From IMG/VR virus record IMGVR_UViG_3300033145_000777, positions 1 to 64,000 of that record: a stretch of 64,000 nt of DNA; one strand, given 5' to 3'. Position 1 is the stretch's first letter. Each line of letters starts with the position of its first letter. Positions 7,294 through 45,040 of this stretch are shown here, piece by piece. The notes beneath the pieces were generated by a model. It was not told the DNA's origin. It ran no database searches and saw nothing but the letters and a program-made list of their open reading frames with translations. A program made the translations under genes and the position numbers. The DNA is from a virus.

Positions 7294-7313
7294 TACTTTA
7301 AGGAGAAAAGAAA

Positions 7314-8485: not shown

Positions 8486-8808
8486 ATTTTGATGAATTAA
8501 GTAGCGAACTTAATACCATAATTGATGGTCTGGTTGGTCCTAACAACGAAGTGGAACCTCCTTATGATGCTTTACGTAGATGGCAAACAAAATTTAACCT
8601 GTTTTCTACAGATGTAGAGTCTAAGAAAACCAGCCCTGTAATGATTATTAACCTAAAGGATATGGAAGACGGGTTAGCGGTTTACTTAAAACTTCTTAAT
8701 GAAGTTGAACGGTTTGGGGTTTCAAGAGACTCGTGTACATTTACATGGATTGATGATAATTCAAAGCAGACAGTAAACGGCCTAAAAGACGGAAGGAAAC
8801 AGGTTTGA
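8482..8808 (+). CDS. Hypothetical protein, 108 aa
   Basis: Starts within the stop of the radical SAM gene and overlaps the next start. No recognised family. It looks soluble, mixed alpha/beta, with no signal peptide or membrane segment. It is more AT-rich than the flanking enzyme genes, like the small gene at 1643-1840, and may be a separate insertion. Confidence 0.6.
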   Translation: MNFDELSSELNTIIDGLVGPNNEVEPPYDALRRWQTKFNLFSTDVESKKTSPVMIINLKDMEDGLAVYLKLLNEVERFGVSRDSCTFTWIDDNSKQTVNGLKDGRKQV

Positions 8809-9809: not shown

Positions 9810-10402
9810 AGCTGAGTTTTGATCGTCCTGTTTTCCTCGGAGCTCACCCTGATGATAACTGCATTGGTGCAGGAGGGATCATGTCCAGGCTTAGGGGCTC
9901 AGAGTTTCACTGCTACACATTCTCATGTAATAACCAATTAAGGGAGTTTGAATGGGTGACAGCAATGGATTACCTTCAGCCAACCTCTAGTAAATTACTC
10001 CAGCTCAAAGGAGACGCATTGCCGGATCATCGTTACGAGATTAGAAAAGTGCTAGAGGAAATCAAAGACCTGATTGACCCCGACGTCGTTTTCACGCACA
10101 GTCTGAATAGCGTTCATCAAAGTCACATAGCTCTCGTTGAGGAAACTGAGAGGATAATGAGGAACGTCACGATACTCGGACACGCTGGGGTAAAATCAGG
10201 ACCCAGGTTCGTACCCAACTTTTTCATTGAACTAAGCAGGGAAGAACTTGATGAGAAACTGAAACTAATCAAGTTTCATAAGTCTGAAGGGAAGAAATAT
10301 TTCACTCAGCCCGACCTCATTGAAGCAGTGGCTAGGTACACTGGTGGAAGAATAGGCGTAGAGTACGCGGAAGGATTCGACGTCCTTAGAATAAAGGTGT
10401 AA
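9806..10402 (+). CDS. PIG-L/LmbE-like N-deacetylase
   Basis: 198 aa. LGAHPDDNCIGAGG is the AHPDD zinc/catalytic motif of the GlcNAc-PI de-N-acetylase (PIG-L/LmbE) family, and SVHQSH supplies the distal His ligands. Family members remove acetyl groups from N-acetyl amino sugars. Here it would act with the acetyltransferases and aminotransferase just downstream, perhaps exchanging acyl groups on an amino sugar. No signal peptide, so cytoplasmic. Confidence 0.85.
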   Translation: MKLSFDRPVFLGAHPDDNCIGAGGIMSRLRGSEFHCYTFSCNNQLREFEWVTAMDYLQPTSSKLLQLKGDALPDHRYEIRKVLEEIKDLIDPDVVFTHSLNSVHQSHIALVEETERIMRNVTILGHAGVKSGPRFVPNFFIELSREELDEKLKLIKFHKSEGKKYFTQPDLIEAVARYTGGRIGVEYAEGFDVLRIKV

Positions 10403-10405
10403 GAT

Positions 10406-11440
10406 ATGAAAAAAACAAAACCCCGTGATCTGGAAGAGATAGAGAAATTCAACCTAAGACCCTACAGGGAGTGCATCATCACAAAAGGCGAGAACGTGAC
10501 CATACATCCCTCGGCTACTCTTGGAGGAGCAGGGTTCACTTGGGCAAGAAAAGAGGATGGAAGTATCGTCCAGGCACACAACCTTGGAGAAATCATCATC
10601 GAGGACAACGTTAGAATCGGTGAGCACTGCACCATCAGAAGGGCAACCCTCCCAGACAAAGCCACAATCATCGGAAAGGGCTCTGTTCTCATCAGCTACG
10701 TGAACGTAGGGCATAACTGCATTATCGGTAAAAACACGTTCTTAGGACCCCACGTATGCTTGAATGGAAGCGTCAACATTGGAGAAGGTTGCTGGATAGC
10801 TGCACACGCTGTAATCCATCAAGGAGTCATCATAGGAAAAGGTGCAATAGTAGGGCTTGGGGCAGTAGTAACAAAAGATGTCCCACCCGGAACCACAGTA
10901 GCAGGAGCACCAGCTATACCCCCCAAGTTCTCTGGGAACTACATTCCCCTCTATCTCCAATATGGCAAAAACCTCGAACTCGGAAAGTTCAACCACATCC
11001 ACGAGGGAGTACAAATTGGGGATGACGTTACGATCAGAAGCTACGTTGAGCTCAGACCACACACCATCATTGGAAACCGTGTGTATCTGGACTCTGGGGT
11101 AAAGACTTCTGGCCAGTGCAGGATTGGAGACGATGTCACCCTGAGGTATGATAGCATTATCGCCAAGGGCTGTGTGATTGAGGACAATGTTTTCATAAGC
11201 CCCCAGCTAATGACTGAGAACGTTAGCCACAAAGGAGATGAAGTAGGCGGTGCTCACATCGGTACTGGAGAATGGGACTACTCCACTCCGTATAGGGTGT
11301 TCATTGGTACAAACGTCACCTTAGCAGCTGGGATCGAGATATGTTCAGGAGCCATCATTGGGTCTAAAGCCAACGTCAGAAAGAGCATACTGGAGCCCGG
11401 AGTATACGTCGGGAATCCAGCTAGGAGGCTAGAGCGATGA
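10406..11440 (+). CDS. Double hexapeptide-repeat acyltransferase
   Basis: 344 aa made almost entirely of isoleucine-patch hexapeptides in two blocks (about residues 20-165 and 190-344), each folding as a left-handed beta-helix. [14 protein letters not shown] ends the first block in the manner of sugar O- and N-acetyltransferases; [12 protein letters not shown] ends the second. A tandem duplication is likely. Usual partners are acetyl-CoA and an amino sugar nucleotide. Confidence 0.8.
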
Positions 11441-16807: not shown

Positions 16808-16929
16808 CTGAGTATGTGTCGAAGTGCCTGTTAAGGAAGAAGGACTATGATCATTATAAACGGGGCAAATGCAATAAGCAGGGAAACACGCTGCAGCATC
16901 ACATCGAGGGAACCATAAATGACGGGTAA
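16804..16929 (+). CDS. Small basic protein, 41 aa
   Basis: Starts in the previous stop and overlaps the radical SAM start by 11 bp. Lys/His-rich with two Cys (CLLRKKDY, GKCNK). Real only on the strength of its coupling; not recognised. Confidence 0.4.
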   Translation: MTEYVSKCLLRKKDYDHYKRGKCNKQGNTLQHHIEGTINDG

Positions 16930-17845
16930 AGTTAGAGTCAGATTAATAGACGCTGACCAGAAGGAGAAAGAGAAGGGCTTTCCGAACCTTGCTTTGATGA
17001 AAATTAGTTCATATTATAAAACCGAAGGAGCTGAGGTAGGGTTCAACGTAGCAGATCCGAACCTAGTCTATATCAGTGTTGTATTCGAAGAGAACTTGGA
17101 ACAAGCCAGAGGGATCGCTACCTATTACCCAGAAGCAGAGGTGTTCCTAGGAGGTCCCGCACTGGAGATTCCTAACACTCTACCCCCCGAGATAGAGAAA
17201 TGTATGCCTGACTATGAGTTATATGGGAGTGATTATAGCATGGGATTCACTACTCGGGGATGTATCAGAAAGTGCCCGTTCTGCATAGTCCATAAGGTGG
17301 AGCCGGAGTTCAAATACCATAAGCACCCTCGCGTGTTCCATCACCCGGATCATAAGAAAATAGTGTTCCTTGACAACAACTTCTTAGCGTGCTCTAATCG
17401 ACTGGAGACCATCCAGTATATCTTGGACCACGACATCAAGGCGTGTTTCAATCAAGGCTTGGACGCACGGCTAATAGATGAGGAGGTGGCGGTCAAGCTC
17501 GCGTCGATGAAGCTCTATAACCTGCACTTCACATTCAGAACGATCTACGTGGCCTGGGATTTGATGGATAGCCAAGATGGTGTGTTGAAGGGAATACAGA
17601 ACCTAATAGATGCAGGGGTAAATCCGAACAACATCAAGGTCTATGTGCTGACTCTCTTCAACACCACCTTCGAAGAGGATAAGTACCGGGTAGAGAAGCT
17701 GTTGAAAATGGGCGTCGAACCCTATATCATGAGGTATAATGGGGATAAGTCCAGCAAGGATGTTAACCAACTTGCAAGGTGGTGCGCGAGGCATCTGTAT
17801 CGGGTATGCAAGTTCGAGGATTATGATCCTAGGAATCACAGGTGA
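16919..17845 (+). CDS. Radical SAM protein (B12-binding-type layout)
   Basis: 308 aa. Residues 1-80 contain DPNLVYISVVF and EVFLGGPALEIP, as in the N-terminal cobalamin-binding-like domain of this superfamily. FTTRGCIRKCPFC holds the CxxxCxxC cluster motif, followed by KIVFLDNNFLAC. Similar proteins occur in phages without known function. It is upstream of and nearly adjoins the helicase gene. Confidence 0.75.
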   Translation: MTGKVRVRLIDADQKEKEKGFPNLALMKISSYYKTEGAEVGFNVADPNLVYISVVFEENLEQARGIATYYPEAEVFLGGPALEIPNTLPPEIEKCMPDYELYGSDYSMGFTTRGCIRKCPFCIVHKVEPEFKYHKHPRVFHHPDHKKIVFLDNNFLACSNRLETIQYILDHDIKACFNQGLDARLIDEEVAVKLASMKLYNLHFTFRTIYVAWDLMDSQDGVLKGIQNLIDAGVNPNNIKVYVLTLFNTTFEEDKYRVEKLLKMGVEPYIMRYNGDKSSKDVNQLARWCARHLYRVCKFEDYDPRNHR

Positions 17846-23746: not shown

Positions 23747-24118
23747 TTGGCTACTGTAACACTTTCCGGGTTCAACGTTTTCACACAGTATCTAGGTAAA
23801 CTACAAGATTCACTTGATAGCATTGCAGCTGCTGCTGTTAGAGAGGTTGCTGAGAGTATTCGTGATGATGCAAAGGAATGGGTAAGAGTTGATACTGGTA
23901 GCCTAAGAAAGAGCATCAGGGTTCAAAACCGCAGACTCTCAGGAGGGTTTCACACCATCGGAGTATCAGCTGGTGGGTACGTCACAAACCCAAAAACAGG
24001 AAGAAAGGTAGACTATGCCTTATATGTAGAGGCAGACTATCCATTCTTGAGACCTGCTGTGATGGCACATGCAATGGACTTAGTTGCCGCAATGAAATGG
24101 AGGATGAGCAATGTCTGA
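23747..24118 (+). CDS. HK97 gp10-like tail/neck protein
   Basis: TTG 23747 is preferred, with GGTG about 8 bases upstream; GTG 23741 is also possible. AVREVAESIRDDAKEWVRVDTGSLRKSI is the helix-plus-VDTGxLRxSI signature of the gp10-like family, and ALYVEADYPFLRPAV the C-terminal motif. Usually this gene precedes the tube gene; here it lies between chaperone and tape measure. Confidence 0.75.
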   Translation: MATVTLSGFNVFTQYLGKLQDSLDSIAAAAVREVAESIRDDAKEWVRVDTGSLRKSIRVQNRRLSGGFHTIGVSAGGYVTNPKTGRKVDYALYVEADYPFLRPAVMAHAMDLVAAMKWRMSNV

Positions 24119-27100
24119 AGTATTTAGTATTGTAGCATACGTTAAAGCCCGTGTAGATGAGGCTAAGAGGGATTTTGCAACATTTCAAAAATCAGTTGAC
24201 GACAGCAAACAAAGCCTAGATAATTTGGGAACAGCAGGTGACGTTGCAGCTGGGATCCTCATTCAACAATTCAGTCAGAACGTAGTCAGGGCATTCGAGA
24301 CATTTGGAAGAGTCACTGTAGACTCGTTTGCAGATTTTGAGACAGCAACTGCACGTATCATAGCCACAACTGGAGCAACAGGAGATGAGCTGATAGAGCT
24401 CACAAGCATTATTGAAGAATCGGCTATGACACTTGGAACCGATTTCGGTGTAGGTGCAGCAAGTGCAATGAGTGGGCTTGAGTCTTTGGTTAAGGCAGGA
24501 TTAGACCCAGCAACTGAAGCAACCCAAGCACTGGAAGGAGTCTTACAACTAGCCACGATTGAGCAGATGAACACAGCATCTGCCGCTAACATGGTTATAG
24601 CTGCAATGACTCAGTATGGTCTAAAGGCAAAGGATACCACCAGAATAGTTGACGGGTTCGTTCAAGCATCAGCAGCTGGAATTGACACTGCAGCAGGATA
24701 TGCTAGTGGTCTCGCAAACGTAGGAGCAACGGCAGCCTCAATGGGGTTCAGCATGGAAGAGACATTGGCTACCCTAGTCCAAATAGACGCTTCCCAGAAA
24801 GATGCACGAAGATCAGGAACATTCCTTAACAGGATGCTTATTGACCTAGCATCCAAATCAAAAGACGCAGGACTGGAAATCTACAACGCAGACGGCTCAA
24901 TGCGATCTATGGATGATATTATCACTGAGCTAAGGGTCAAGATTCAAGGATTCGGCAACGATCAAGCAGCAGTAAACGAATGGCTAGGACAATTCCAGTC
25001 ACTCTCACAGAGAGCCATACTCTCCCTAGTAAACTACGATGGAACAATAGAAGACACCCAGATCAAACTCCAAGGTATGTCAGGTGCCCAGGAAACAGCT
25101 AACGTAATTCTAGACACCTACGCTGGTCGCCTTGCTGTAGCTGATGCAAAACAGGAAAGTGCAGCTATTGGGATGGGTGAAGTAACCTCTGAATTGAGTA
25201 TAATGAGTGCAGAGTTCATGGCGTCCCTTGGACCCGTAGGTCTCTTAGCAGACTCCCTTGGCCCACCTATGCTTAGTGGAGCAATGCAGGGCGTTACAAT
25301 GGTCTTCGTTCCACAGCTGATTAAAACCCTCGGGCAAATGGTAGCCCAGATGGGTTTAGCAACAACCGCATCCACCATCCTTGGAGGTGCAATGAACATC
25401 ATGACAGGTCCCATAGGGTGGATTACCCTTGCGGTGGGAGCCCTAGCTTTGGCTTGGAGTAATGATTGGGGAGGCATACAGGAAAAGACAGGTGCTGTGA
25501 TTGACTTCATTATGGAGAAGATTGCTTGGGTCACTGATGGGATCTCTTGGTTTGGAGACTCTGTTAGAGGAATACTCAAATGGGTTGGAGATGGATGGAC
25601 GGCATTAAATGACACTATCGGTGAGCAACTAGGTAGTCAAGTCGTACTTGTTGAATCAGCTCTTGACGATGAGCTGAATGCAATAGAAGATAGCTATGCT
25701 GACCAGGTTAGTTTAATCAAAGAATCCTATGTAGAAAGACTATCAGATATAGATGCAGCATTAGCGGGTCAACTCAACGTCTCTGAGTCACACTATGAGG
25801 ACTTGAAGAGACTGGCAGAAGAAGCTCATGAAACAGCGTTAACTGATTTACAGGAGCATTGGGTAGACCAGATTGATGAAACAGCTGAAGGCTGGGAAAG
25901 CGTAGTTGAGGAATACGAGAGCCATTACGCTGATATAATTAATGAAACAACCGAAAGCTATAGCAACCTGCTTTCTGAAACCGAGACATTCTATGATGAT
26001 ATGCTTGCAGAGCAGAATGCGTTCCTAGTTGCAATAAGGGAAGGTCGAAACCGTGATCTTGATGACCTTGAACTCAATTTCCTGTTAGAAAAGAAGAAAC
26101 TCGAAAACCAGCTTGAAAAGAAGAAAATCTCAAAATTCGAATATGAGAAAGATATGGAGAAGCTGGAGAAAGACTACCGGGAGAAGAGGGCAGAAATCAG
26201 GGATGATTACCGCATACAGGAACTGCAGGCGGAAGAAACCTTCAGGACTGAGGAGGAACGCATTAACTCTGAGAGAGCCGATGCCCTTGAAACCATTGAA
26301 AAGGATAAGGCAGATGAGTTAGAGCGTATCAACGAAGAACAGAACGCAGCCATTCAACTGATTAGAGACGCGGAAGCCGAGCTTGCAGAGCAACATGCAA
26401 AGGAGTTAGAACAGCTTGCACTAGATCATGCAGCTGAACAAGCCCTAATTACATTAGAGGCTAATCGAGAACAGCAAAGGCTCACATTAGCGAACCAAGA
26501 AACACTCAAGAGGTTAGAAACAAAGCTTTACACCGACCTCGAAACAGCTGAGGAGGAGCATAAAACAGTTGTCACTGACACATGGACGGACATGTGGGAT
26601 GACCAGATGCAAACAACTAGAGACGCCACTAATGACATTGAAACAAACGTAGCTAACATGGATTCAGCCCTAGCCACCTCGATAGAAGGTCTTAGAGATT
26701 GGGCTTCAGACGTCGTTGATGCAGCAAAAAGTGCATATAATAAGGCTAAGGATTGGTGGGACAAAATCTCACGCGGAAATAAAAGCAGTGGAGGCGGCGG
26801 AGGCTCGCGTGATGGAGATGACACCGTAGTTACTGCCCCTGATCTTGATGCTGGAGACACATCACCTTCCACAGAAGGACCATGGGGTGGTAGCGAAAGA
26901 TTTGCGCTTGCCGAGGGCTTTGAGGGATGGGTTGATAAACCCACTAACTTCCTTGCAGGTGAGGCAGGACCCGAATACGTAAGCGTCACGCCCTCAGGAG
27001 CTTCCCGCCAGATTGCTGGCAAGACCACGATCATACATGGTCCTCTTCTTACCATTGAAGGAAGTGCTGATGAGAAGACAGCCAAGCTCGCAGCTAAACT

Positions 27101-27128
27101 TATTATGAGTGAACTGAGGAAATATTGA
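24111..27128 (+). CDS. Tape measure protein
   Basis: 1005 aa. Residues 20-330 are a TP901-type tape-measure core (DFETATARIIATTGATGDE, GLESLVKAGLDPATEATQAL). Hydrophobic segments occupy about 370-460 (GPIGWITLAVGALALAW). A very long charged coiled coil covers about 515-860. A Gly-rich linker leads to the common ending FLAGEAGPEYVSVTP. By the usual 1.5 angstrom per residue the tail would be near 150 nm, fitting a long-tailed virion. No sheath gene is visible, so a siphovirus-like form is likely. Confidence 0.9.
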   Translation: MSEVFSIVAYVKARVDEAKRDFATFQKSVDDSKQSLDNLGTAGDVAAGILIQQFSQNVVRAFETFGRVTVDSFADFETATARIIATTGATGDELIELTSIIEESAMTLGTDFGVGAASAMSGLESLVKAGLDPATEATQALEGVLQLATIEQMNTASAANMVIAAMTQYGLKAKDTTRIVDGFVQASAAGIDTAAGYASGLANVGATAASMGFSMEETLATLVQIDASQKDARRSGTFLNRMLIDLASKSKDAGLEIYNADGSMRSMDDIITELRVKIQGFGNDQAAVNEWLGQFQSLSQRAILSLVNYDGTIEDTQIKLQGMSGAQETANVILDTYAGRLAVADAKQESAAIGMGEVTSELSIMSAEFMASLGPVGLLADSLGPPMLSGAMQGVTMVFVPQLIKTLGQMVAQMGLATTASTILGGAMNIMTGPIGWITLAVGALALAWSNDWGGIQEKTGAVIDFIMEKIAWVTDGISWFGDSVRGILKWVGDGWTALNDTIGEQLGSQVVLVESALDDELNAIEDSYADQVSLIKESYVERLSDIDAALAGQLNVSESHYEDLKRLAEEAHETALTDLQEHWVDQIDETAEGWESVVEEYESHYADIINETTESYSNLLSETETFYDDMLAEQNAFLVAIREGRNRDLDDLELNFLLEKKKLENQLEKKKISKFEYEKDMEKLEKDYREKRAEIRDDYRIQELQAEETFRTEEERINSERADALETIEKDKADELERINEEQNAAIQLIRDAEAELAEQHAKELEQLALDHAAEQALITLEANREQQRLTLANQETLKRLETKLYTDLETAEEEHKTVVTDTWTDMWDDQMQTTRDATNDIETNVANMDSALATSIEGLRDWASDVVDAAKSAYNKAKDWWDKISRGNKSSGGGGGSRDGDDTVVTAPDLDAGDTSPSTEGPWGGSERFALAEGFEGWVDKPTNFLAGEAGPEYVSVTPSGASRQIAGKTTIIHGPLLTIEGSADEKTAKLAAKLIMSELRKY

Positions 27129-29551: not shown

Positions 29552-29797
29552 ATGAGTATAATAGATTTTAAACAGATCGCGGCGGAGGCACTCATTGTCA
29601 GTAAGGAGCTTCGGCGGCTTGGCACTGAGATGCGTGTGTTCTGCACCAAAGTTGTGAACATTGAGGCTGAGGATAAGGATGGGGTTGAGACTGTGTTGAA
29701 ACCCGAGGAGATGAAGACACGGTACATGGAGCTTCGGGCGCAGATTGCGGCGATTGAGTTCCCAACCAAAGTCACACCACCGGAGGTTGACCCATAA
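29552..29797 (+). CDS. Small helical protein in tail module, 81 aa
   Basis: Two predicted helices (ALIVSKELRRLGTEMRVF and EMKTRYMELRAQIAAIEF) and a Pro-rich end. The stop overlaps the next ATG. Possibly a chaperone or fibre connector. Confidence 0.55.
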   Translation: MSIIDFKQIAAEALIVSKELRRLGTEMRVFCTKVVNIEAEDKDGVETVLKPEEMKTRYMELRAQIAAIEFPTKVTPPEVDP

Positions 29798-31206
29798 TGG
29801 TGCTTGAAGAACATCTTGTCTGTGACCTCAGGATGAACGAAGGCAGCGGCACAGTCACCCGTGATCGGAGTGGGAATGATGCTAAGGGAACCTTCGGGGC
29901 AGGAGGCGAGGCTCCGTCATGGGCTGACGGAAAATGGGGTATAGGAAAAGCTCTATCCTTTGATGGTGGAGACATCCTCACAGTTAATGACTTAATCACA
30001 TTACTTGCTGCCGTGGAATCTGGGGCTATTGAGGCATGGGCGAAAATTGACACCGACGCAGGAGCCAATGAGACTATATTCAGCGTGTCAAGGAACGTAA
30101 ACGCCACTCTAACTGAACTACTAGTCCTATATAATACAGGTGGGGCTACCGATAACTTCATAATAGTGTTAAGAGTGGACGGGACAACTCAATGGTCGGC
30201 AGCGAGTGCCGTAGGTACTGTTGACCCGTATATTGGAGAATATGTTCACTTGGTTTTAACTCAAGATGGGATTGAGCCCACTTTGTCTATTAACGGGAAC
30301 TTATCTCCGTTGATTTTTAGTGATGAGACTGATAAAACAGCGTGGTTTAAGGCATTGATAACGGATGCCGCCAGCCCATCTGATGTGGCTACTGTTGGGG
30401 CGGTTATAAGAAATGGCGCCAAATCAATACACCTCACTGGTGATGTTCAGGTTCTCCGGGTCTATGATGCTGTGCCTTCTCCTCAGCAAGTTCGGGCGTT
30501 GTATGCGGAGGGACTCATTAAGCTCCGTGATGGTAGGGTGTTGGATATGCCTTTCAACGAAGGCTCAGGAACCGTGACAAGGGATAGAAGCCCATCAGAC
30601 ATTCAGGGTGTTTTGACTCCGGGGGCAGGAGGATGGGTAGAAGGAAGAAACGGGAGGCAGGCGATTGATTTCGATGGCGCCGATACTAGGGTGAATTGTG
30701 GGAATCCGTCCTCTGTTGACAACATCTTTGATGGTGGTGGTTCGCTTAGTGTGTGGATTAACCCAGACTCAGATGGAGAAGCAGGATCAGGGAGAATATT
30801 CGATAAACGAGATCCGGGGTGGCTATGTCTTGTCAAATCCGAAGCTGGTGGAAAAGTTGAGGTTAGGCTACATCAGGACTTTGATATAACTGACGGGGTG
30901 TGGGACACAACATTCCCAATAGTTGTGATTGGAGAAGACACCCATTTGGTGATAACTTACGACAGCATGGATGTTGGAAATGACCCGATTTTCTACATAA
31001 ACGGAGTGTCATACACTGTAGACAATGGAATAACAGAGACAACCACTCCCGAGGGTTCTAGTGCGGATGACAGCACAAAGAGCCTTGGATTAGGTGGGAG
31101 GACAACTGGAACTAATGTTTTCGATGGCAAAATCGACTCACCCCTTCTTTATAAAAGAATTCTTTCTCCAAGAGAAGTTCGTGAACTGTACGAGGCGACA
31201 AAGTAA
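29797..31206 (+). CDS. Tandem LamG/ConA-like virion protein
   Basis: 469 aa in two homologous halves. Each begins with [LM]NEGSGTVTRDRS-like sequence (near residues 11 and 250), has a KALSFDGGD or QAIDFDGADTRVNC strand and ends with a [QR]VRALYxEG/REVRELYEAT helix. These are laminin-G/concanavalin folds that bind sugars. Near the tail tip it may recognise host surface glycans or the virus's own glycan. Confidence 0.75.
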   Translation: MVLEEHLVCDLRMNEGSGTVTRDRSGNDAKGTFGAGGEAPSWADGKWGIGKALSFDGGDILTVNDLITLLAAVESGAIEAWAKIDTDAGANETIFSVSRNVNATLTELLVLYNTGGATDNFIIVLRVDGTTQWSAASAVGTVDPYIGEYVHLVLTQDGIEPTLSINGNLSPLIFSDETDKTAWFKALITDAASPSDVATVGAVIRNGAKSIHLTGDVQVLRVYDAVPSPQQVRALYAEGLIKLRDGRVLDMPFNEGSGTVTRDRSPSDIQGVLTPGAGGWVEGRNGRQAIDFDGADTRVNCGNPSSVDNIFDGGGSLSVWINPDSDGEAGSGRIFDKRDPGWLCLVKSEAGGKVEVRLHQDFDITDGVWDTTFPIVVIGEDTHLVITYDSMDVGNDPIFYINGVSYTVDNGITETTTPEGSSADDSTKSLGLGGRTTGTNVFDGKIDSPLLYKRILSPREVRELYEATK

Positions 31207-33297: not shown

Positions 33298-34065
33298 ATG
33301 GCGAGAGATCCCAAAGGTAGATTTGTTAAAGGTCATATTCCTTGGATCAAGGGTAGAAAGGCGTCTGAGGAAACTAAGCAGAAACTTGTTGAAAGCCACA
33401 AGGGGCAGGTTCCTTGGAATAAGGGTGTAACAGGCTATACTACTTCATGGAAGGGTCGGAAACATTCTGAAGAAACTAAGCAAATATTGAAAGAAACCCG
33501 TAAGAGGCAGATATTCACTGACGAAACTCGGAAGAAAATGAGTGACACGAAGAAAAGAATGGGGAATGAACCTTTACTGAATCACATTAAAGAACACGGT
33601 TCATGGAATAAGGGCTTGACCAAGGAAACGGATGACCGGGTAAAAAAATACGGGGAGTCTCAGAAGGGTAAGGTCATTTCTGAGGAGACTAGGCAGAAAA
33701 ATCGTGAGGCCAGAATGAAACAGCGACTACCCAAAAAAGATACCTCTATTGAACTTGCCTTACAAAGGGGACTTGATGTGGTAGGCATTAACTATGACAC
33801 CCATCTTCCAGTCTGTGGTATATGTCAACCTGATATAGTTTTTCCTGAAATGAAACTCGCAGTTTTTGCTGATGGGGATTACTGGCATAACCTTCCCGGA
33901 AAAAGAGAAAAAGACTTAAAACAAAACCAAGTTTTGAAGGAGAACGGCTGGACAGTTCTCCGTTTCTGGGGACGTGAGATAAATTCTGATATAGAGGGTT
34001 GTGTTAATAAGATTAGGAAACATATAGGCTTTCTCATCAGGGTAGACAAGGACATGATGAAATGA
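33298..34065 (+). CDS. Vsr-like homing endonuclease with NUMOD3 repeats
   Basis: 255 aa. At least three NUMOD3-type DNA-binding repeats (KGRKASEETKQKL, KGRKHSEETKQIL, KGKVISEETRQK) occupy residues 15-145. The C-terminal domain is Vsr-like: SIELALQRGLD, CQPDIVFPEMKLAVFADGDY with WH, and TVLRFWGREI. This is the architecture of EDxHD-type freestanding homing endonucleases. It sits directly before, and overlaps by 4 bp, a tail gene that itself contains an intein. The 51-bp AT-rich gap upstream may hold its own promoter. Confidence 0.8.
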   Translation: MARDPKGRFVKGHIPWIKGRKASEETKQKLVESHKGQVPWNKGVTGYTTSWKGRKHSEETKQILKETRKRQIFTDETRKKMSDTKKRMGNEPLLNHIKEHGSWNKGLTKETDDRVKKYGESQKGKVISEETRQKNREARMKQRLPKKDTSIELALQRGLDVVGINYDTHLPVCGICQPDIVFPEMKLAVFADGDYWHNLPGKREKDLKQNQVLKENGWTVLRFWGREINSDIEGCVNKIRKHIGFLIRVDKDMMK

Positions 34066-35585
34066 AGATAAAAGATAAAGTCAAGATGCGGGGACGATGT
34101 CGTTTCACGATAAGAGACGCCGAGACGGGAGAGATCGTTGAGCAGACTCCTTGGAGAGATAACCTAGTCACGGATGTCGGAGAAGAAATGTACGCCCAAT
34201 TAATGAAGGGAGACACAATAGACCCATGCAATTACTGCGCCGTAGGCGATGATAACACACCAGCCGCCGAAGCCGACACAGTTCTAGGCTCTGAGCTAGG
34301 ACGACTTGAGGTAACGGAAATAACCATCGCAGGCTCCGTTGTCACTTACAGCACATTCTTCGGGTCAGGCGACGCCAATGGTTGTTATGATGAGTTAACT
34401 GAATGTCTAACTGAGGGTGGCTGGAAATACATTAAAGATGTTCAAAAAGGAGAACAAATATTAACCTTAAATGAACAAGGATGCCTGGAGTATCAACCTA
34501 ACCTAAAAACCCATAAATATTCACACTCAGGAATCATGTATTCCTTACAGCGTCCTGGACGATTCAATCTTCTTATTACCCCAAAACACTGGTTAATCGT
34601 AAAGAATCATTCATGGCATGACCATATGAGAAGGTCAAAAATATTAACAGGGAGACAATGGCACCATGATTTATTTAAACCTGTAATGACCGAAAACTGT
34701 CTTCATGGAAAATGGGATATGATTAAATCAGGAGAATGGCATGGGGAAGAACCAGAGACCATTACTATTCCGGCTTTAAAATACAAAATGCAGGCGTGGA
34801 AAACAAAATATATAAAAGAGAAACCTGAAAGAAAATTTAAAACATCCCCCTTCCTAAAGCTGACGGCTTGGTATCTTTCAGAAGGTTCAGTTGATTATGG
34901 TACGACCGGTAATCCTAATAGAACTAAAATTAGTCAAATAAAAAAGGAAGAAAACCGACAAGAAATTGTTGAATTGTGTAAAGAATTAAAACTAAATTAC
35001 TCAATAAACAAAAAAGGAATTAACATAAATGATAACCAGATAGCTACTTACTTTACCGCTTTTGGAAAAAACGCCCTGGAAAAAAGATCACCCTTATACA
35101 TTAAACGATTATCCCAAAAACTAATTCAAGAGTTCCTCCACACATATATGAAGGGGGATGGCAATCTCAAAAAGAACTATCTTTTCACTTCATCACCGGC
35201 AATGAGAGATGATCTCCAAGAACTAGGCATCAAAGCAGGATATGGTGCAGACTATACTGCATACATATCTTCAAACAGCTTTTCTGAAAAAGAAAAATAT
35301 ACAATTCGATTATTAAAAGGAAAATCACACTTAGCTATTGGGCGTGGACACTCTTTAAAACCCGTGCCTTTTTCAGGGTTTGTATATTGTTTAGAGGTGC
35401 CTAACCATGTTTTTCTAGTTAGACGAGAAGGAAAAACGGTGTTTTGTGGAAACACATGGTGGGAAGTAGGTATGCTTAACGCAGCGGTAGGTGGAGTCCT
35501 AATTGCTCGTACCGTTCTAGGAGGCGCACAGGTAAAAAACGCAGCGAACACAGTGACGATAGATTATGAGCTTTCTGTTACTTGA
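34062..35585 (+). CDS. Tail-fibre-type protein interrupted by an intein
   Basis: 507-aa precursor. The extein is about 150 aa: residues 1-107 (RFTIRDAETGEIVEQ, DNLVTDVGEEMYAQLM, TYSTFFGSGDANG) and the last 43 residues (TWWEVGMLN, GGVLIARTVLGG, NTVTIDYELSV). This matches short phage tail proteins with an FxGxxDANGTW junction. The intein splits the conserved ANG/TW site. Virion role inferred from position after the hub. Confidence 0.75.
   Translation: MKIKDKVKMRGRCRFTIRDAETGEIVEQTPWRDNLVTDVGEEMYAQLMKGDTIDPCNYCAVGDDNTPAAEADTVLGSELGRLEVTEITIAGSVVTYSTFFGSGDANGCYDELTECLTEGGWKYIKDVQKGEQILTLNEQGCLEYQPNLKTHKYSHSGIMYSLQRPGRFNLLITPKHWLIVKNHSWHDHMRRSKILTGRQWHHDLFKPVMTENCLHGKWDMIKSGEWHGEEPETITIPALKYKMQAWKTKYIKEKPERKFKTSPFLKLTAWYLSEGSVDYGTTGNPNRTKISQIKKEENRQEIVELCKELKLNYSINKKGININDNQIATYFTAFGKNALEKRSPLYIKRLSQKLIQEFLHTYMKGDGNLKKNYLFTSSPAMRDDLQELGIKAGYGADYTAYISSNSFSEKEKYTIRLLKGKSHLAIGRGHSLKPVPFSGFVYCLEVPNHVFLVRREGKTVFCGNTWWEVGMLNAAVGGVLIARTVLGGAQVKNAANTVTIDYELSVT
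34383..35453 (+). other. LAGLIDADG-type intein in the tail protein
   Basis: 357 codons from Cys1 (CYDELTECLTEGGWKYI) to FCGN, with Thr as the +1 residue. LLITPKHWLIV is block B and VYCLEVPNHVFLVRREGK block F. Between them are two degenerate dodecapeptide helices, LTAWYLSEGSVDYG and QEFLHTYMKGDGN, typical of LAGLIDADG homing nucleases. The penultimate residue is Gly rather than His. Lower GC than the extein, a sign of independent origin. Confidence 0.85.
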
Positions 35586-36075: not shown

Positions 36076-36726
36076 CTGCCAGGACAAAAGTGGATTACTG
36101 GAGATGTTATTACCTTCGCTCGTATGAATCAGAAAACCCTCATAGTTCAAGCTGCAGAGCCCACAATTATGTATGTGGGCATGTGCTGGTTTGATGTAGA
36201 TGATGATAGATTGAAGGAGAGGAATGCAGCTAACGCTGCATGGATAGAACGCCCAGGCGTCACTCTGACAGCTACTATCTCGGGTCTTTGGACTTTTGAC
36301 CGTGGGGCTGCTGTCCCATTCGCTGTGGATGCAGCGAGCCTGAAGGTTACGAACCTTGACGCTGACAAGGTAGATGGACAGCACAGAGTTCTTAACATTA
36401 ATGCTGACCATGACCATGAGGGCGCAGGTGCAGAGGGCGGAACCCTTGACGTTGCCGCTATTGCCTCAGGGATCCTTAGTGTGGCGAGGGGAGGAACAGC
36501 ACTCGCCGCGTATGCACAGGGAGGAATACTATACATTTCAGGTGCAAACACCCTCTCAAGGTTAGCCCCAGCCGCAGCTAACCGGGTGTTGAGATCAACT
36601 GGAGCGAATGCACTTGAGTTCGGAGTCCTTGTTACAGCAGACATTCCCACCCTCACTATAGCCAAACTCTCAGATCACAACAAAGCAAACCATGATTCAC
36701 TGTTGATTTATGCGAGGTATGCTTAA
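36076..36726 (+). CDS. Tail fibre protein, CTG start
   Basis: AGGAGG at 36061-36066 is 9 bases before CTG 36076, which gives PGQKWITGDVITFARMN at the N-terminus; the first ATG (36124) has no such site. The start residues resemble the anchors of the next two proteins (W....I.VDALI). Residues 100-200 have GGT...YAQGGILYISGANTL and RLAPAAANRVLRSTGANAL, the repeat pattern of phage tail fibres. Confidence 0.65.
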   Translation: MPGQKWITGDVITFARMNQKTLIVQAAEPTIMYVGMCWFDVDDDRLKERNAANAAWIERPGVTLTATISGLWTFDRGAAVPFAVDAASLKVTNLDADKVDGQHRVLNINADHDHEGAGAEGGTLDVAAIASGILSVARGGTALAAYAQGGILYISGANTLSRLAPAAANRVLRSTGANALEFGVLVTADIPTLTIAKLSDHNKANHDSLLIYARYA

Positions 36727-36741
36727 GAGGACTTGAATAGT

Positions 36742-37170
36742 ATGCCGTTTGTCTGGACCCAGAACATCGCAGTCGATGCCCTAATAGAAGCAGCTGACGT
36801 CAATGAGGTCAAAACCAACCTTGATTCCATTTACACAGCCTTGGGGATCACTAGAGGGGGATGTGGGGCTGGAGGAGGATGGGTTGAACTCCCCGTAGGA
36901 GTTGGTGACTTGATTGAGTCAGCTGACTTTCAGGAGATGAGGGATGTCACTGACTTTGCCTACGACAACAGGTGTCCCTCTTTTGATGCCGCTGATTTTG
37001 GGTCTGATGAGGCAGTGCATGATGAAGGCGTCGATGTTGGAGATAACACGGGTTATAATAGTGACGACGACTCAAGCTATGACGATAATGATCACGGCAC
37101 TTATGAGTCAGGACACGATACAAGCGTTAATGATTACGATGACGACTCATTTAATGATATAAACGTGTAA
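36742..37170 (+). CDS. Fibre-like protein with octapeptide repeats (A)
   Basis: 142 aa from ATG 36742. Residues 1-25 (MPFVWTQNIAVDALIEAAD) repeat at about residues 47-80 in altered form (VELPVGVGDLIESADFQEM). After DNRC comes an Asp/Asn/Gly/Tyr-rich tail of about seven eight-residue repeats with consensus x-x-[YVF]-[DNE]-x-x-[DHN]-[DNH] (for example GTYESGHD). The repeat could form a metal-binding beta-solenoid. Two radical SAM genes follow one gene downstream. Confidence 0.75.
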   Translation: MPFVWTQNIAVDALIEAADVNEVKTNLDSIYTALGITRGGCGAGGGWVELPVGVGDLIESADFQEMRDVTDFAYDNRCPSFDAADFGSDEAVHDEGVDVGDNTGYNSDDDSSYDDNDHGTYESGHDTSVNDYDDDSFNDINV

Positions 37171-37185
37171 GGTGGAAATGAAAAA

Positions 37186-37482
37186 ATGCCGTTTGTTTGG
37201 GTGCAGAACATCGCCGTAGACGCATTAATCGACTCAGCTGACTTGGCGGAGATTCGAACTAATGTAGATTGGGTGGAAGATAACAAATGTGCTGCCCATG
37301 ATACAGGGCATGATTTAACAAATCATGGTCCCGTTGATAATGGGGATGATGCACCCGTGAACGTCGGAGAAGATGGCACCTATGACTCTGGAGATAATGA
37401 CGGATATGATGGCACAAAAAACGCTGGTGCTAACTCTGGGGAAGATGGCAGTTACAATAATGGAGACAACAACGTCGTTTAG
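37186..37482 (+). CDS. Fibre-like protein with octapeptide repeats (B)
   Basis: 98 aa. The N-terminus (MPFVWVQNIAVDALIDSAD) is almost identical to protein A. After DNKC, about seven octads follow (for example APVNVGED, GTYDSGDN, GSYNNGDN), consensus x-x-[VY]-[DN]-x-G-[DE]-[DN]. A single Cys precedes the repeats in both proteins. It lies 15 bp after A and 12 bp before the radical SAM pair. The layout of a leader-like anchor followed by short repeats resembles a RiPP precursor, but a tail-fibre tip is equally possible. Confidence 0.75.
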   Translation: MPFVWVQNIAVDALIDSADLAEIRTNVDWVEDNKCAAHDTGHDLTNHGPVDNGDDAPVNVGEDGTYDSGDNDGYDGTKNAGANSGEDGSYNNGDNNVV

Positions 37483-37494
37483 AAGGTAAATAAA

Positions 37495-38811
37495 ATGAGT
37501 CTTGTAGCAGCAGAAATGTTAACCACGGGTACATGCCCTTTCAACTGTTCATATTGCTATATTCCTAAAACGGAGTATATGAAGGAAATACACGCCAAGC
37601 TAGTTGAGCATCTTCAAAACGGGAACTACATTGAGTTACTGAAAAAAGTCTATGGTGAAAACCTTACTCATTTAGGGCTCTGGGGTACAGAACCTACGCT
37701 CACAATACCACTGATTGCTGATCTTTTACCAGCACTGTTAAATGAGTTTCCTCTTCTGAAGGAGATAAAGTTTTCAACAGCTATGATTTCAGACCCTTTG
37801 ATTATAGCGAACTTTGCTAAAGCATTATCTAAAACAGGAGTTAAGATTAACCTCAGCGTTCAGATGTCTCTTGATGGTCCCTCATGGATTACTGATAAAA
37901 ATAGGATGCGTGGAGCCGCTGCTCTTGTCCCTAAGAATCTATATGCTCTTGTTAGGATTCTGAATGATCATGACCTCAATGAAACAACAGTCGAGTTCCG
38001 ATGGAAGGCAACTCATAGCATCGAAACAATCAAAATATTTGCTAATAGTAAAAAAAGGATTCACGAGTATCTTGGCTTCTTTGAGTCTATACGTCGCCGC
38101 TTCAACAAGATCAATAAAAACAAAAACATGAAACTTGTCTCAACCTCGGCTCCGACAACTCTCGTAGTACCAGGAAAATACACCAGCACAGATGGTAAAA
38201 TATTCGCAAAATACCTAAAGACCCTCCACAAAGCAGACTATGAATCCACTTATAGTAGTCGGCTGAATAAAATCTTCAAGTATGGAAGGGATATAGACAA
38301 AAGGAGAATGTTTACATGTAGTGGTGGTGACTCCAATCTCGGCATAGCCCCAGGTCGGATACACATCTGTCACCGCACCTTCTACCTAGACGATGACAAA
38401 TACATTCAATCAGTCTTAGCATCTGAAAGCTCAGTTGGCGACGTAGAAAATTGGGACATATCCCTTTTCCGTAAAGGTACAATAGATTTTGTGAGGGACA
38501 ACTACATTGTTCCCGTCTCTGACCTACCTCGGTTCCTATACGTGATGCGTGGCTATCATGATTTCTGGCGGCTACAACTTGGGCATGTAAGAGCTATGTT
38601 GATAGAGTTAGCACTCGCTGGTCAAGCAGATGAAGTATATATAGACGATGAGGAACTAGCCTCTCTGTTCTGTCTTTTTATGGAAACAGCCTTAACCTGT
38701 CCGATGGAGAACTTGTTAAATACCGGGTCTATCCACCTTCAAACTGTATCCTTGATAAGGCTGTTTGCAAACGGAGCTTTCCAAGAACTCCTAAAGGAGG
38801 CACAACGATGA
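37495..38811 (+). CDS. Radical SAM protein 1, next to octapeptide proteins
   Basis: 438 aa. CPFNCSYC is the CxxxCxxC motif (residues 14-21) and LWGTEPTLTIPL stands where the GGE motif would be. KINLSVQMSLDGPSW is typical of peptide-modifying radical SAM enzymes. ICHRTFYLDDD has the same CHRT motif as the second enzyme. Unlike that enzyme it lacks an obvious C-terminal SPASM Cys cluster. It starts 12 bp after octapeptide protein B, so substrate coupling is plausible. Confidence 0.75.
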   Translation: MSLVAAEMLTTGTCPFNCSYCYIPKTEYMKEIHAKLVEHLQNGNYIELLKKVYGENLTHLGLWGTEPTLTIPLIADLLPALLNEFPLLKEIKFSTAMISDPLIIANFAKALSKTGVKINLSVQMSLDGPSWITDKNRMRGAAALVPKNLYALVRILNDHDLNETTVEFRWKATHSIETIKIFANSKKRIHEYLGFFESIRRRFNKINKNKNMKLVSTSAPTTLVVPGKYTSTDGKIFAKYLKTLHKADYESTYSSRLNKIFKYGRDIDKRRMFTCSGGDSNLGIAPGRIHICHRTFYLDDDKYIQSVLASESSVGDVENWDISLFRKGTIDFVRDNYIVPVSDLPRFLYVMRGYHDFWRLQLGHVRAMLIELALAGQADEVYIDDEELASLFCLFMETALTCPMENLLNTGSIHLQTVSLIRLFANGAFQELLKEAQR

Positions 38812-40121
38812 GTTATCAACAAGAAAACGATACCCTAATCACCTCTCTATTTGAGCGAACATTCTTCGAGTCATGGAACGCGAACCCCCCGGAACTCTCA
38901 AACTTCCATAGGGTCGAGTTTATACTTAACTACAAATGCAACCTTGCTTGCAAATATTGCTATGTAACCCATTATGGGGATGAACTTTATCCTCCAGAAC
39001 TCTATAAAGATGAAGCACAAGTGCTAAATAACCTAGAGATGGTGCTTGATTGGTTTATAGAAAACAATTATGCTCCAGAAATAGAGGTATTCTCAGGAGA
39101 AGCACTCATTCAAGATATAGGCTATAAAGCCTTGAATATGATTCTTGATAAATTTGAAGGAAAGATCAAGACCCGTATTATCATCCCGACAAACTACACC
39201 TTCATTCTTTCAAAAACGCTAACCAAACAAGTTGAGACGCTCTTAAACCGAGGTAAAAAAATAGGGATACCCATTTTTCTGAGTGCTTCATTTGATGGAA
39301 AATATTGCGAGGCTAATCGTCCCTTCCAGCCTGGAGTTAAAGACTTGCGTGATGATGATTATTATGATAAGTGCTTTGCCTTCATTAAGAAATGGGGCTT
39401 CGGGTTCCACCCAATGATTTACTCTGAAAAAATTAGAAACTGGAAGGATAATTTCCTTTGGTTCCAAGAGATGCTTAAAAAACATAACATCCCTTGGTAT
39501 AGGATATACCTCTTATCCGTCCGTAATGCTGAGTGGAGTATTCAACAAACCCGTGATTTTCACGATTTTATTGAGTTTCTAATAAAATGGGTCTATGATA
39601 ATCCATGCAACAAAGACCCTAAGAAATACCTAGATTTTCTATTCAAAAAGCGTGGATTCAATATCCTCAATGGTCCTCTTTCTACTGTAGGCAGAGGAAT
39701 TGGGTGTTCCCTTCAGTCACAGTTATTTTTACGGCTGGGTGACTTAGCTATTGTTCCATGTCATAGAACTAGCTACGAGCACTTGATCTTAGGACACCTA
39801 AAAGTGGAGGACAACAAAATCGCAGGGATCTCCGCAAAGAACCCAGAGTTAGCAGTAACCAAACACTCGTTTAGTGCAAAAATGTTTCCTTATTGTGAGA
39901 CCTGTCTTATCCGTGAACTTTGCAGCTTCGGGTGCTTGGGAGCGCAGATTGAGACAACAGGTGATTTATTCACGCCCATTCCCACCGTTTGTCGTCAGCA
40001 ACACGCTAAAATAAGGAGCATGATTAAAACCTATCAGGAACTTAATATGCTTGATTTAATTCTCAGTAATCTTAGCACTGAGAAAGTGTACGCAATCAAA
40101 AAATTGGTTGAAATAATATGA
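38808..40121 (+). CDS. Radical SAM/SPASM-like protein 2
   Basis: 437 aa, overlapping the previous gene by 4 bp. CNLACKYCY is the cluster motif, EVFSGEALIQ the SAM-binding variant of GGE, and IPIFLSASFDG the following strand. C-terminal Cys: CHRTSYEH, then FPYCETCLIRELCSFGC and a final TVC, the C-x2-C-x5-C-x3-C spacing of SPASM auxiliary-cluster domains. SPASM enzymes mostly modify ribosomal peptides or proteins. With protein 1 it probably forms a two-enzyme system acting on the octapeptide proteins or another virion protein. Confidence 0.8.
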   Translation: MSYQQENDTLITSLFERTFFESWNANPPELSNFHRVEFILNYKCNLACKYCYVTHYGDELYPPELYKDEAQVLNNLEMVLDWFIENNYAPEIEVFSGEALIQDIGYKALNMILDKFEGKIKTRIIIPTNYTFILSKTLTKQVETLLNRGKKIGIPIFLSASFDGKYCEANRPFQPGVKDLRDDDYYDKCFAFIKKWGFGFHPMIYSEKIRNWKDNFLWFQEMLKKHNIPWYRIYLLSVRNAEWSIQQTRDFHDFIEFLIKWVYDNPCNKDPKKYLDFLFKKRGFNILNGPLSTVGRGIGCSLQSQLFLRLGDLAIVPCHRTSYEHLILGHLKVEDNKIAGISAKNPELAVTKHSFSAKMFPYCETCLIRELCSFGCLGAQIETTGDLFTPIPTVCRQQHAKIRSMIKTYQELNMLDLILSNLSTEKVYAIKKLVEII

Positions 40122-40678
40122 GTGAACAGAAAAACCCACAAGAGATGTTTGATGAAAAGATAGAGACAATCGAAAAGATCATGGAACATAAAACAGATTT
40201 CACACAAACCTACGGTAATAAAGGAAGTGACATGATCATAGCCGCTTTCGACATTATGCGCGTCCAGTTTAGTGCTGCCATTCAACTGGAAACCTTGGAA
40301 GAGTCAGCCAAACTCGCAGTACAAGAGAAAACAGAGGTAGTTGAAAAAGCGTTAAAACTAATGCTCGACGTAGCCCTCTACAGGCCGATAACCAAAATAG
40401 TTCGTCACCTATCCCTTGAAGTCACAGAGTTTGCCAAAAACTGGAATGATCAAGTCCCTCAATGTCCAAATATAGCACAAAAGATCGCGGTTCTATCACG
40501 CATCGTGTCATCCCAGAAAACTATGGATGATACTATCCAGATCACAAAGAAGTTGCTGGAGAAGCTACAACGAGAAATGAGCAGACGCCCGGTAGCCTAT
40601 GAGCTTTCTAAGCACTACCTTGAAAGCACAGACTTTTCAATCAAGAGACGAAATGAAAAACAAAAGGAGGTGAAGTGA
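40118..40678 (+). CDS. Hypothetical helical protein, 186 aa
   Basis: Overlaps the second radical SAM gene by 4 bp, so it belongs to that operon. All helical, with no Cys-rich motif and no membrane segment. It could be a partner of the radical SAM pair, but this is position-based inference only. Confidence 0.6.
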   Translation: MSEQKNPQEMFDEKIETIEKIMEHKTDFTQTYGNKGSDMIIAAFDIMRVQFSAAIQLETLEESAKLAVQEKTEVVEKALKLMLDVALYRPITKIVRHLSLEVTEFAKNWNDQVPQCPNIAQKIAVLSRIVSSQKTMDDTIQITKKLLEKLQREMSRRPVAYELSKHYLESTDFSIKRRNEKQKEVK

Positions 40679-43701: not shown

Positions 43702-44255
43702 TGACTGAGATGATTGTTTGCCCATCCAAACTTGGGAACAAGACACGAGAAGAATGTAATGGGTGTCAATGGTGTAGTCTGGGGGATTGTCCTCCAGGGG
43801 CGTACTTTGTAAGGAACGAGGAGGGAGACAGGAAGCTCTTTGAGGATTATCTGTATGATCCCACGAGTATCGCTGATGAAAATGGACGCTGGAAGGTTGT
43901 GTTCAATGTTAGTGAAATCACTCTAGAGGAGCTGAAGGCGAAACTGGAAGGTATGTTCGGGTTGACTACCTGTAGTCGAGAAGGACTCTGGATATATGAC
44001 CTTGATAAACAAGAAGAAGAGACACAGCCAAATTATGACGGGGTGAGTGCTTTTGTTGGGATTCGACGGATGGTTGAAGAAAGGTTTTCCGAACATGAGA
44101 TCACAGGAGAAGGAGATTCCAAAGATTGGAAACTATACGCAGACGGCGATCTAGTGGCACATGGTTCAAGAGAGTCTGCGGCTTTCAGCTGGACACTGAT
44201 AGCAAAAGAGGTCAAGCAGATATACGATCTCATTAAGGACAAGGAGGTATCCTGA
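43698..44255 (+). CDS. Hypothetical Cys-cluster protein, 185 aa
   Basis: N-terminal cluster ECNGCQWCSLGDCPPG may bind zinc or Fe-S. The remainder is alpha/beta and acidic. Coupled to the Gp37/Gp68-type radical SAM gene downstream, possibly as partner. Confidence 0.55.
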   Translation: MMTEMIVCPSKLGNKTREECNGCQWCSLGDCPPGAYFVRNEEGDRKLFEDYLYDPTSIADENGRWKVVFNVSEITLEELKAKLEGMFGLTTCSREGLWIYDLDKQEEETQPNYDGVSAFVGIRRMVEERFSEHEITGEGDSKDWKLYADGDLVAHGSRESAAFSWTLIAKEVKQIYDLIKDKEVS

Positions 44256-45040
44256 TGGCAAAAAAGCTCCAGTTGAGGAAAGCTAAAGGCAGGATGTTCA
44301 CCACGCCTGACTGGACTTGTACTTTCTGGCAAGGTTGTTCACACCACTGCATCTATTGCTGTTCTATGTTGATGGGTATCGGTCATAAATTCAGGATGAT
44401 GGTGGACTTTAGCACCCTCAAGGACTTAGAGGTACGGGACTGTATAATCTACGTGAACAGTGCTCATGACACCTTCAGCAGGAAGCAGCTGGGAACTGAG
44501 AACGTTAACAAAATTCAGCAAGGCACAGATGTTCCCGTTGAGTGGATAAGGGACATGTTCGAATACATTACTAGGCAGGACCCTAGCATAACTTGGATGT
44601 TTGTCACAAAGAACCCCGCCGGGTATCTTGGATGGCTAAAGGAGCTAACTGAATTGAAGGATCGGGTGATCTTGGGTGCAACCATTGAAACAAACAGGTC
44701 TATGATCATGTACAGTCAAGCTATCAAGCCCCAGGTGAGGGCTTGGGTTCTGCACCACCTATCCCAGAAGCTTGGCTTCAAAACCTTGGTAAGCATTGAG
44801 CCTATGTTCAAGTTTGACCTTGAACTGTTCTCATCATGGATTAGTAGAATCCATCCAATGGTTGTGGAAATTGGGTTAGATGGTTGGGAGCATAAGCACA
44901 AGAAAAGCTTACCTCAACCTGACTTGGATGACTATCGGCAACTGAAGGAAATGTTAGATAGTATTGGGATCAAGGTGATCGAGAAGCCTAGTATTGATGC
45001 GTGGTTCGTAAGTGAGGCATTAAATAAGGTAACTGGTTGA
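44255..45040 (+). CDS. Phage Gp37/Gp68-type radical SAM protein
   Basis: 261 aa. WQGCSHHCIYCC is the CxxxCxxC motif, VTKNPAGYL and GATIETNRS are typical of the phage Gp37/Gp68 (DUF5131) family, and SIEPMFKFDLELF follows as usual. The family is widespread in phages and mobile elements; its reaction is not established. Fifth radical SAM protein of the window. Confidence 0.8.
   Translation: MAKKLQLRKAKGRMFTTPDWTCTFWQGCSHHCIYCCSMLMGIGHKFRMMVDFSTLKDLEVRDCIIYVNSAHDTFSRKQLGTENVNKIQQGTDVPVEWIRDMFEYITRQDPSITWMFVTKNPAGYLGWLKELTELKDRVILGATIETNRSMIMYSQAIKPQVRAWVLHHLSQKLGFKTLVSIEPMFKFDLELFSSWISRIHPMVVEIGLDGWEHKHKKSLPQPDLDDYRQLKEMLDSIGIKVIEKPSIDAWFVSEALNKVTG

Follow-up and report, generated by a model that had tools for sequence, protein, structure and literature searches.

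Genes of the cassette and their tail-module setting

The window analysed here, the first 64,000 nucleotides of an 81,182-base IMG/VR virus record (IMGVR_UViG_3300033145_000777), holds inside its tail module a cassette of nearly touching genes in the order A, B, R1, R2, orfC, in which two repeat-rich proteins (A and B) are followed by two radical S-adenosylmethionine (SAM) enzymes (R1 and R2) and an all-helical protein (Table 1). A preliminary description of this DNA had raised the idea that the enzymes modify the repeats of a virus fibre. Its gene coordinates all hold, including the gap of 12 bp between B and R1 and the overlap of 4 bp between R1 and R2, and orfC was absent from its cassette.

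Table 1. Positions of features in the window and in the genome of Campylobacter phage CP220 (ORF, open reading frame; HMM, hidden Markov model)
Feature	Record	Positions	Strand	Description
Tape measure gene	window	24111-27128		in tail module, upstream of A; PHROG match
LamG-lectin virion protein	window	29797..31206	+	same tail module; Laminin_G_3 E 2e-20, two stretches; phrog_8510 virion structural protein E 5e-16
Tail-fibre-like protein	window	36124..36726	+	directly upstream of A; stretch VTNLDADKVDG; PHROG 24121 at E 0.003
Protein A	window	36742..37170	+	ORF, ATG start, alternative TTG 9 bp upstream; anchor residues 1-36; second, degenerate anchor residues 47-77; Cys78; about 13 tetrads to the C terminus (about 36973-37167)
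Protein B	window	37186..37482	+	ORF; anchor residues 1-34; Cys35; about 15 tetrads (37288-37479)
R1, radical SAM enzyme 1	window	37495..38811	+	CxxxCxxC residues 14-21; further Cys275, Cys292, Cys402
R2, radical SAM/SPASM enzyme 2	window	38808..40121	+	CxxxCxxC residues 44-51; SPASM Cys 300, 318, 363, 366, 372, 376, 395
orfC	window	40118..40678	+	all-helical protein; HMM matches kept beside enzymes in relatives
gp140 (CPT_0180)	NC_027997	160932-162536		Cys-tetrad repeat protein
gp136	NC_027997	164742-165911		R1-like; 2.2 kb from gp140
gp023	NC_027997	16347-17450		R2-like; about 30 kb from gp140 on the circular map

Proteins A and B begin with near-identical anchors, as had been described (MPFVWTQNIAVDALIEAADVNEVKTNLD in A and MPFVWVQNIAVDALIDSADLAEIRTNVD in B), which share about 35 residues with the pattern W...I..EIR.N.D, and A has in addition a degenerate second copy (WVELPVGVGDLIESADFQEMRD). 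The lone Cys noticed ahead of the repeats is likewise present in both (DNRC in A, DNKC in B), and apart from this junction Cys none occurs inside the repeats of A and B. In a permutation test of residue-phase information, B was periodic at four residues (z = 7.0) and at eight (z = 5.9; p <= 0.0002 each), and its tail at 12 as well, and A was periodic at four (z = 3.5, p = 0.001) and at eight (z = 5.0); periods of 2, 3, 5, 6, 7 and 9 reached no significance in either protein. No tandem repeat was found in the DNA of the two repeat tails, so their regularity is held at the protein level. AlphaFold predicts a helix for the anchor of B, with a predicted local distance difference test score (pLDDT) of 72-82, and leaves its repeats (about 42) without secondary structure. 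A matched no PHROG and no NCBIfam family, and no Pfam family above the cut-off.

The two enzymes belong to the radical SAM family by their CxxxCxxC motif, invariant in 22 R1 and 24 R2 sequences. R1 reaches 33.4 bits with the Pfam Radical_SAM model (cut-off 29.5), and R2 matches it at E 3e-5 with 24.5 bits, under that cut-off, and the SPASM model TIGR04085 with 23.8 bits, slightly under the cut-off of 27. All six Cys of R1 are invariant in its 22 relatives, and all ten of R2, the CxxxCxxC and seven C-terminal SPASM Cys, in its 24; R2 therefore has the full SPASM set, in agreement with the earlier view of two radical SAM genes behind A and B, the second with a SPASM-like cluster. The extra invariant Cys of R1 (275, 292 and 402) deviate from the SPASM pattern, and no SPASM model matches R1. 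Its best NCBIfam match is PapB, at an E-value of 5e-12 and far under the cut-off; with 45.7 bits for R1 and 36.5 for R2 against a cut-off of 340 (NF047865), neither falls within that family. The closest solved structures are 5WGG, 8VPO, ChlB, a sulfatase maturase and SkfB, and on these comparisons R1 and R2 are nearest to peptide and protein maturases.

The third cassette gene, orfC, is modelled by AlphaFold with a pLDDT of 91 and seven helices.

Co-occurrence and repeat chemistry among relatives

Viral contigs were searched with R1 and with alignments, which yielded dozens of contigs, all partial, and the repeat proteins, R1, R2 and orfC all recurred in the first relatives found. A single-sequence search of the viral contigs with R2 gave no match; an alignment-based search did find relatives. 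The phage collection held no close relatives of R1, its only R2 matches were Campylobacter proteins with 26% identity, and querying it with loci L023, L034 and L073 gave no close relatives. We then surveyed all loci by profile and periodicity, which gave 50 non-redundant R2 clusters (95% identity, at least 150 bits). R1 was found in 47 of the 50 R2 loci, orfC in 41 and adjacent tetrad proteins in 41, with two or more tetrad proteins in 28; part of the 41 tetrad calls were made by repeat HMM or by eye and not by z score, and they include loci with genes broken in the standard code. Tetrad-positive ORFs lay close to R2 (117 of 2,958 ORFs within 6 kb, 0 of 1,302 beyond). The co-occurrence search proposed in the preliminary description was in this way answered by about 50 diverse viral loci that hold repeat proteins and both enzymes together, in several gene orders.

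Most loci have the order T-T-R1-R2-C (T, tetrad protein; C, orfC), four have R1-C-T-T-R2-C with orfC duplicated, and two have R1-R2-C-T-T. The linkage persists through these reshuffled orders, which argues for function and not for frozen synteny. Moreover, where R1 and R2 are separated, a copy of orfC follows each enzyme, and this duplication points to orfC as a partner or helper of the enzymes. Nine R2 loci received no tetrad call. Two of them (L055 and L068) begin in or at R1, three (L073, L075 and L082) encode GTxS[NYD], a repeat of five residues, immediately ahead of R1, two (L076 and L080) have small repetitive proteins upstream of R1, and the remaining two (L063 and L064) are considered below. 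The proteins with the five-residue repeat (GTCSNGTKSYGTNSN...) lie at L073 5546-6685, L075 4618-5703 and L082 5381-6658, in each case ahead of an R1/R2 pair. In L029, L070, L071, L074, L078, L079 and L080, R1/R2 are split by in-frame stops in the standard code, which suggests stop-codon reassignment, or decay or sequencing errors.

An anchor search with the full protein set found no conserved stretch common to all repeat proteins; repeated with a tighter set, it led to no contig beyond those in which the cassette was already known, and for that reason it adds little. In the genome collection, relatives were found on contigs of metagenome-assembled genomes labelled archaeal (seven) and bacterial (three); some of these are viral contigs themselves, which leaves the hosts unproven.

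Across the family the repeat is a tetrad, [YHVDE]-[DNY]-[STAG]-[TGS]. Log-likelihoods from a cyclic HMM fitted to 62 repeat proteins were -29,945 for period 4 and -32,885 or worse for periods 2, 3, 5, 6 and 7; period 8 fitted slightly better than period 4, with twice the parameters. The HMM counts 13 tetrads in A and 15 in B. The octad originally described is real in so far as period 8 exceeds chance in A and B, but the basic unit of the family is the tetrad and an octad is two of them; likewise the Tyr-x-x triads at an eight-residue period are present and form merely a subset of the repeat units. Among 2,002 tetrads, position a holds Y (23%), H (16%), D (15%), V (15%), E (8%) and N (6%), position b D (31%), N (21%) and Y (18%), position c S (32%), T (14%), A (12%) and G (12%), and position d T (27%), G (22%) and S (21%), so that two larger residues alternate with two small ones. 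The suggestion that Tyr-x-x is the enzyme target is not supported by this count, Tyr making up only 23% of its position beside His, Asp and Val. Asp, Asn, Tyr and His have a beta-carbon beside a planar group, where a radical is stabilised, and Glu, Gln, Lys and Leu are rarer in the tetrads than these four. This composition fits beta-carbon radical chemistry and, equally well, a plain structural preference. Pairwise coupling was strong between positions a and c (i, i+2; z 16), between c and d (z 15) and nearly as strong in other pairs. A reading of the a-c coupling as the sign of a three-residue cyclophane cross-link was set aside, because c-d and other pairs are coupled nearly as strongly. His occurs at +3 after the junction Cys (Cys-x-x-His) in 25 of 49 repeat proteins, possibly as a recognition or metal site. 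Some repeat proteins end in SD[IKR]RLKxxIxYx (L043 8502-9059, L066 284-1075, L120 11842-12579), a sequence similar to the beginning of the S74 fibre chaperone motif but with no match in Pfam.

Several loci among the weaker R2 relatives hold Cys-rich tetrad proteins with similar anchors, which we call class II. A repeat-first search by DNA pattern, covering the Cys class only and run over all viral contigs, found 14 stretches by the Cys-tetrad pattern alone, one of which (L114) was too short to judge. Radical SAM genes of the CxxxCxxC type were nearby in 12 of the 13 readable stretches, 11 by HMM and L116 by motif only. L117, L118, L122 and L124 are near-identical and two stretches share a contig, which leaves about eight independent cases. 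Had the repeat proteins been widespread without the enzymes, the proposed link would have been undermined; instead, the anchor search and, with one exception taken up below, the Cys-tetrad search gave enzyme-bearing loci. For most enzymes of either class PapB is the top-scoring model, with scores that never come near its cut-off; it was the best NCBIfam match for four of the five enzymes scanned from L084 and L120. The CXXX-repeat target model TIGR04114 came close to matching the L104 repeat protein, at E 0.006 with 17 bits (cut-off 20).

The cultured Campylobacter phages carry a version of this system. In CP220, gp140 includes CLCDCNYCTCDCNYCTCDCNYCTC... with the repeats CDCNYCTCDCNY, and is annotated as hypothetical only, or as a putative lyase in CP21 and WX1. 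Its gene holds a 21-bp repeat, described in the CP220 genome paper as the sole coding repeat (PMC2853527). The R2-like gp023 is 38% identical to a class II enzyme. We found gp140 in 15 of 50,697 phage records and the R2-like gp023, at that strength of match, in the same 15; these records are close relatives and therefore count as one lineage, not as 15 tests. CP220 had been a candidate control for enzymes without repeats and was rejected, gp140 carrying Cys tetrads that are invisible to the tetrad scan. In two other short proteins of CP220 (NC_027997 24206-24577 and 138106-138531) Cys recurs with a period of three residues (CKNCINCSNCKNC, CIDCIDCYKC), and these may be additional targets of its many radical SAM enzymes.

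The earlier placement of the cassette in the tail-fibre part of the genome agrees with the tape measure gene upstream and the LamG virion protein in the module. For the protein directly upstream of A, Pfam gave no family, and we infer its fibre character from its sequence. In relatives, the anchor of A and B recurs in lectin-bearing fibre proteins, LamG lectin domains stand between anchor and tetrads in repeat proteins of L006 and L044, and fibre and baseplate genes neighbour the cassettes of L005 and L006. By both tail neighbourhood and shared fibre domains, A and B look tail-associated.

Elsewhere in the window, a tail-like protein (34062-35585) has an apparent intein-like interruption (Hint match at E 0.012; Cys after GDANG, FCGN before TWWEVG), and the tail module contains a likely homing endonuclease with NUMOD3 and a Vsr/DUF559-type endonuclease (33298-34065). 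A glycosyltransferase cluster that also includes a hexapeptide-repeat transferase and one radical SAM gene (3289-11440) may serve virus-encoded glycan synthesis. Further radical SAM-like genes lie inside this cluster (7655-8485), at 16919-17845 (phrog_9298 match, E 8e-65) and at 44255-45040, the last with only a weak resemblance to Rv2578c-type proteins.

Proposed mechanism and rival explanations

We consider it likely that the virus-encoded R1 and R2 modify the repeats of the tail-attached proteins, as maturases of ribosomally synthesised and post-translationally modified peptides (RiPPs) do. Since tetrad tail proteins stand beside radical SAM enzymes of the peptide-cross-linking type, it is probable that the viruses alter their fibre by chemical means once it has been made. 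Under this proposal R1 and R2 would bind the anchor and the Cys junction as a leader and proceed along the tetrads unit after unit, acting as a pair in the manner of TrnC/TrnD on the two thuricin CD precursors (PMC12093266), with orfC as enzyme partner or delivery protein. Every tetrad would gain a covalent change, most likely a bond at the beta-carbon of a planar residue (Asp, Asn, Tyr or His), and a chain with no predicted fold would be converted into a stiff, protease- and heat-resistant tail spike. The leader would not be cleaved, unlike that of a classical RiPP, and would remain as the virion anchor. That the change is a cross-link, as opposed to epimerisation or something else, is in our estimate about an even chance; sequence does not distinguish cross-linking from epimerisation.

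Several points weigh against this proposal. The modification of the repeats is proposed from the genes, and the virion location of the repeat proteins from neighbours and domain fusions. L063 and L064 have the enzymes and no convincing repeat protein, and L115, a Cys-tetrad locus, has no enzyme in the stretch read. The tetrads have no single invariant residue, an unusual trait in a RiPP core, and Phe and Trp are rare in them, which is of no help to the beta-carbon radical idea. Asp or Asn stands at +4 of the junction Cys in 24 of 49 proteins, against a baseline of 52%, so Cys-X3-Asp is not enriched; PapB-type Cys-X3-Asp was accordingly rejected as a general chemistry, +4 Asp not rising above the tetrad background. 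The evidence falls short of establishing a Tyr cross-link, since Tyr shares its position with several other residues, or a PapB-type thioether, since Cys-X3-Asp lacks enrichment. Foldseek found no match for orfC at E <= 0.001 in PDB or BFVD, leaving it with no known relative.

The repeats could instead be ordinary low-complexity or calcium-binding adhesive tails, folded as a beta-solenoid, with the radical SAM enzymes as unrelated neighbours. Their richness in Asp, Asn and Gly resembles calcium-binding repeats, and phage tail modules do gather unrelated genes. However, no Pfam repeat family matches them, and AlphaFold leaves the repeats of B unfolded with no strands, which an absent ion or a shallow alignment could explain. 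Moreover, the enzymes accompany the repeats through changes of gene order and through differing repeat chemistries (Tyr/His/Asp, Cys, and the period-5 GTxS[NYD] of L073, L075 and L082), and we regard this explanation as unlikely.

A second alternative, in which the repeat proteins are not built into the virion but set free as bacteriocin-like or anti-host RiPPs, would fit the classical RiPP arrangement of a precursor with two radical SAM enzymes, of which thuricin CD is an example (PMC12093266). Yet the cassettes sit among tail genes, some repeat proteins (in L006 and L044) have LamG lectin domains between anchor and tetrads, and in the cassettes read no peptidase or exporter gene was recognised, albeit without a systematic search; we find this account very unlikely. 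We would give still less credence to R1 and R2 acting on another substrate, such as a host factor, a glycan or a cofactor, with the repeat protein as scaffold or regulator. Radical SAM enzymes do modify sugars and cofactors too, and the same virus has a glycosyltransferase cluster with a radical SAM gene of its own. Against this, the best scores of R1 and R2 are to peptide- or protein-modifying families, and in the loci surveyed we recognised no gene for a different substrate that accompanies the cassette.

Returning to modification of the repeats by R1 and R2, we lean, if only slightly, towards a wider proposition: that in tailed viruses of archaea and bacteria radical SAM pairs cross-link or epimerise the repeats of their own tail proteins successively, giving a covalently locked, genetically encoded polymer fibre whose leader is the virion anchor, a strategy that would be realised with different repeat chemistries (Tyr/His/Asp tetrads, Cys tetrads and GTxS[NYD] pentads). 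If true, RiPP-type radical chemistry would serve viral structural parts and not small peptides alone, and an enzyme family iterating on long tetrapeptide repeats would be of use for cross-linked protein polymers. It would also account for the many radical SAM genes of some phages, left unexplained for CP220 (PMC2853527). The cultured representatives, the Campylobacter group II phages, make the idea directly testable on virions.

Comparison with known systems

PapB, a SPASM enzyme that links Cys to Asp or Glu at a four-residue spacing, Cys-X3-Asp (PMC9413430), is the best NCBIfam match for R1 and R2, and R2 is also a SPASM protein; the tetrads of the window, on the other hand, have no internal Cys, and Cys-X3-Asp is not enriched in the relatives. 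TvgB modifies TVGG tetrapeptide repeats to cyclopropylglycine (PMC9062424) and so resembles the cassette in that a radical SAM enzyme alters a tetrapeptide repeat unit by unit. The TvgA/TvgB system differs in that it is cellular, its cluster combines a single radical SAM enzyme with a dioxygenase and transporters, its motif is fixed (TVGG) with Val as the only target, and its substrate is not a virion protein. The His-Xaa-Ser system (HxsA-D) likewise has a repeat-rich target, radical SAM enzymes in a pair and a conserved protein of small size; R1, however, reaches only E 1e-4 with HxsB and 0.02 with HxsC, far under the cut-offs, and the Hxs models gave no match for orfC or the repeat proteins A and B, which places the cassette outside that family. 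CXXX-repeat systems (TIGR04114, TIGR04115, TIGR04119) combine a four-residue Cys repeat with a radical SAM maturase, and viral class II comes close to them, in appearance only; class I, which includes the window, has no regular repeat Cys and does not belong there.

In thuricin CD, two radical SAM enzymes, TrnC and TrnD, act in complex on two precursor peptides (PMC12093266), a pairing like that of R1/R2 with A/B, whereas its product is a secreted sactibiotic with thioether cross-links, no repeats and a non-viral origin. The Campylobacter phages CP220/CPt10 and IBB_35 have R2-like gp023, R1-like gp136 and the Cys tetrads of gp140. In the available parts of the papers, the 11 radical SAM proteins of CP220 are termed highly unusual and metabolic roles are suggested (PMC2853527), and for the six of IBB_35 activating-enzyme or methylation roles are suggested (PMC3322345); the enzymes are thus treated there as metabolic or DNA-modifying, with no tie to gp140. 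Our searches of the open-access literature turned up no account of virion repeats being modified by virus-encoded radical SAM enzymes. Taken together, the cassette would appear to work like the repeat-directed radical SAM systems (Hxs, CXXX, Tvg), and by the tests made it lies outside PapB, Hxs and CXXX. New are the association with viral tail proteins, an anchor that would be kept where other systems remove a leader, the combination of two enzymes with orfC, and the wide spread over viruses.

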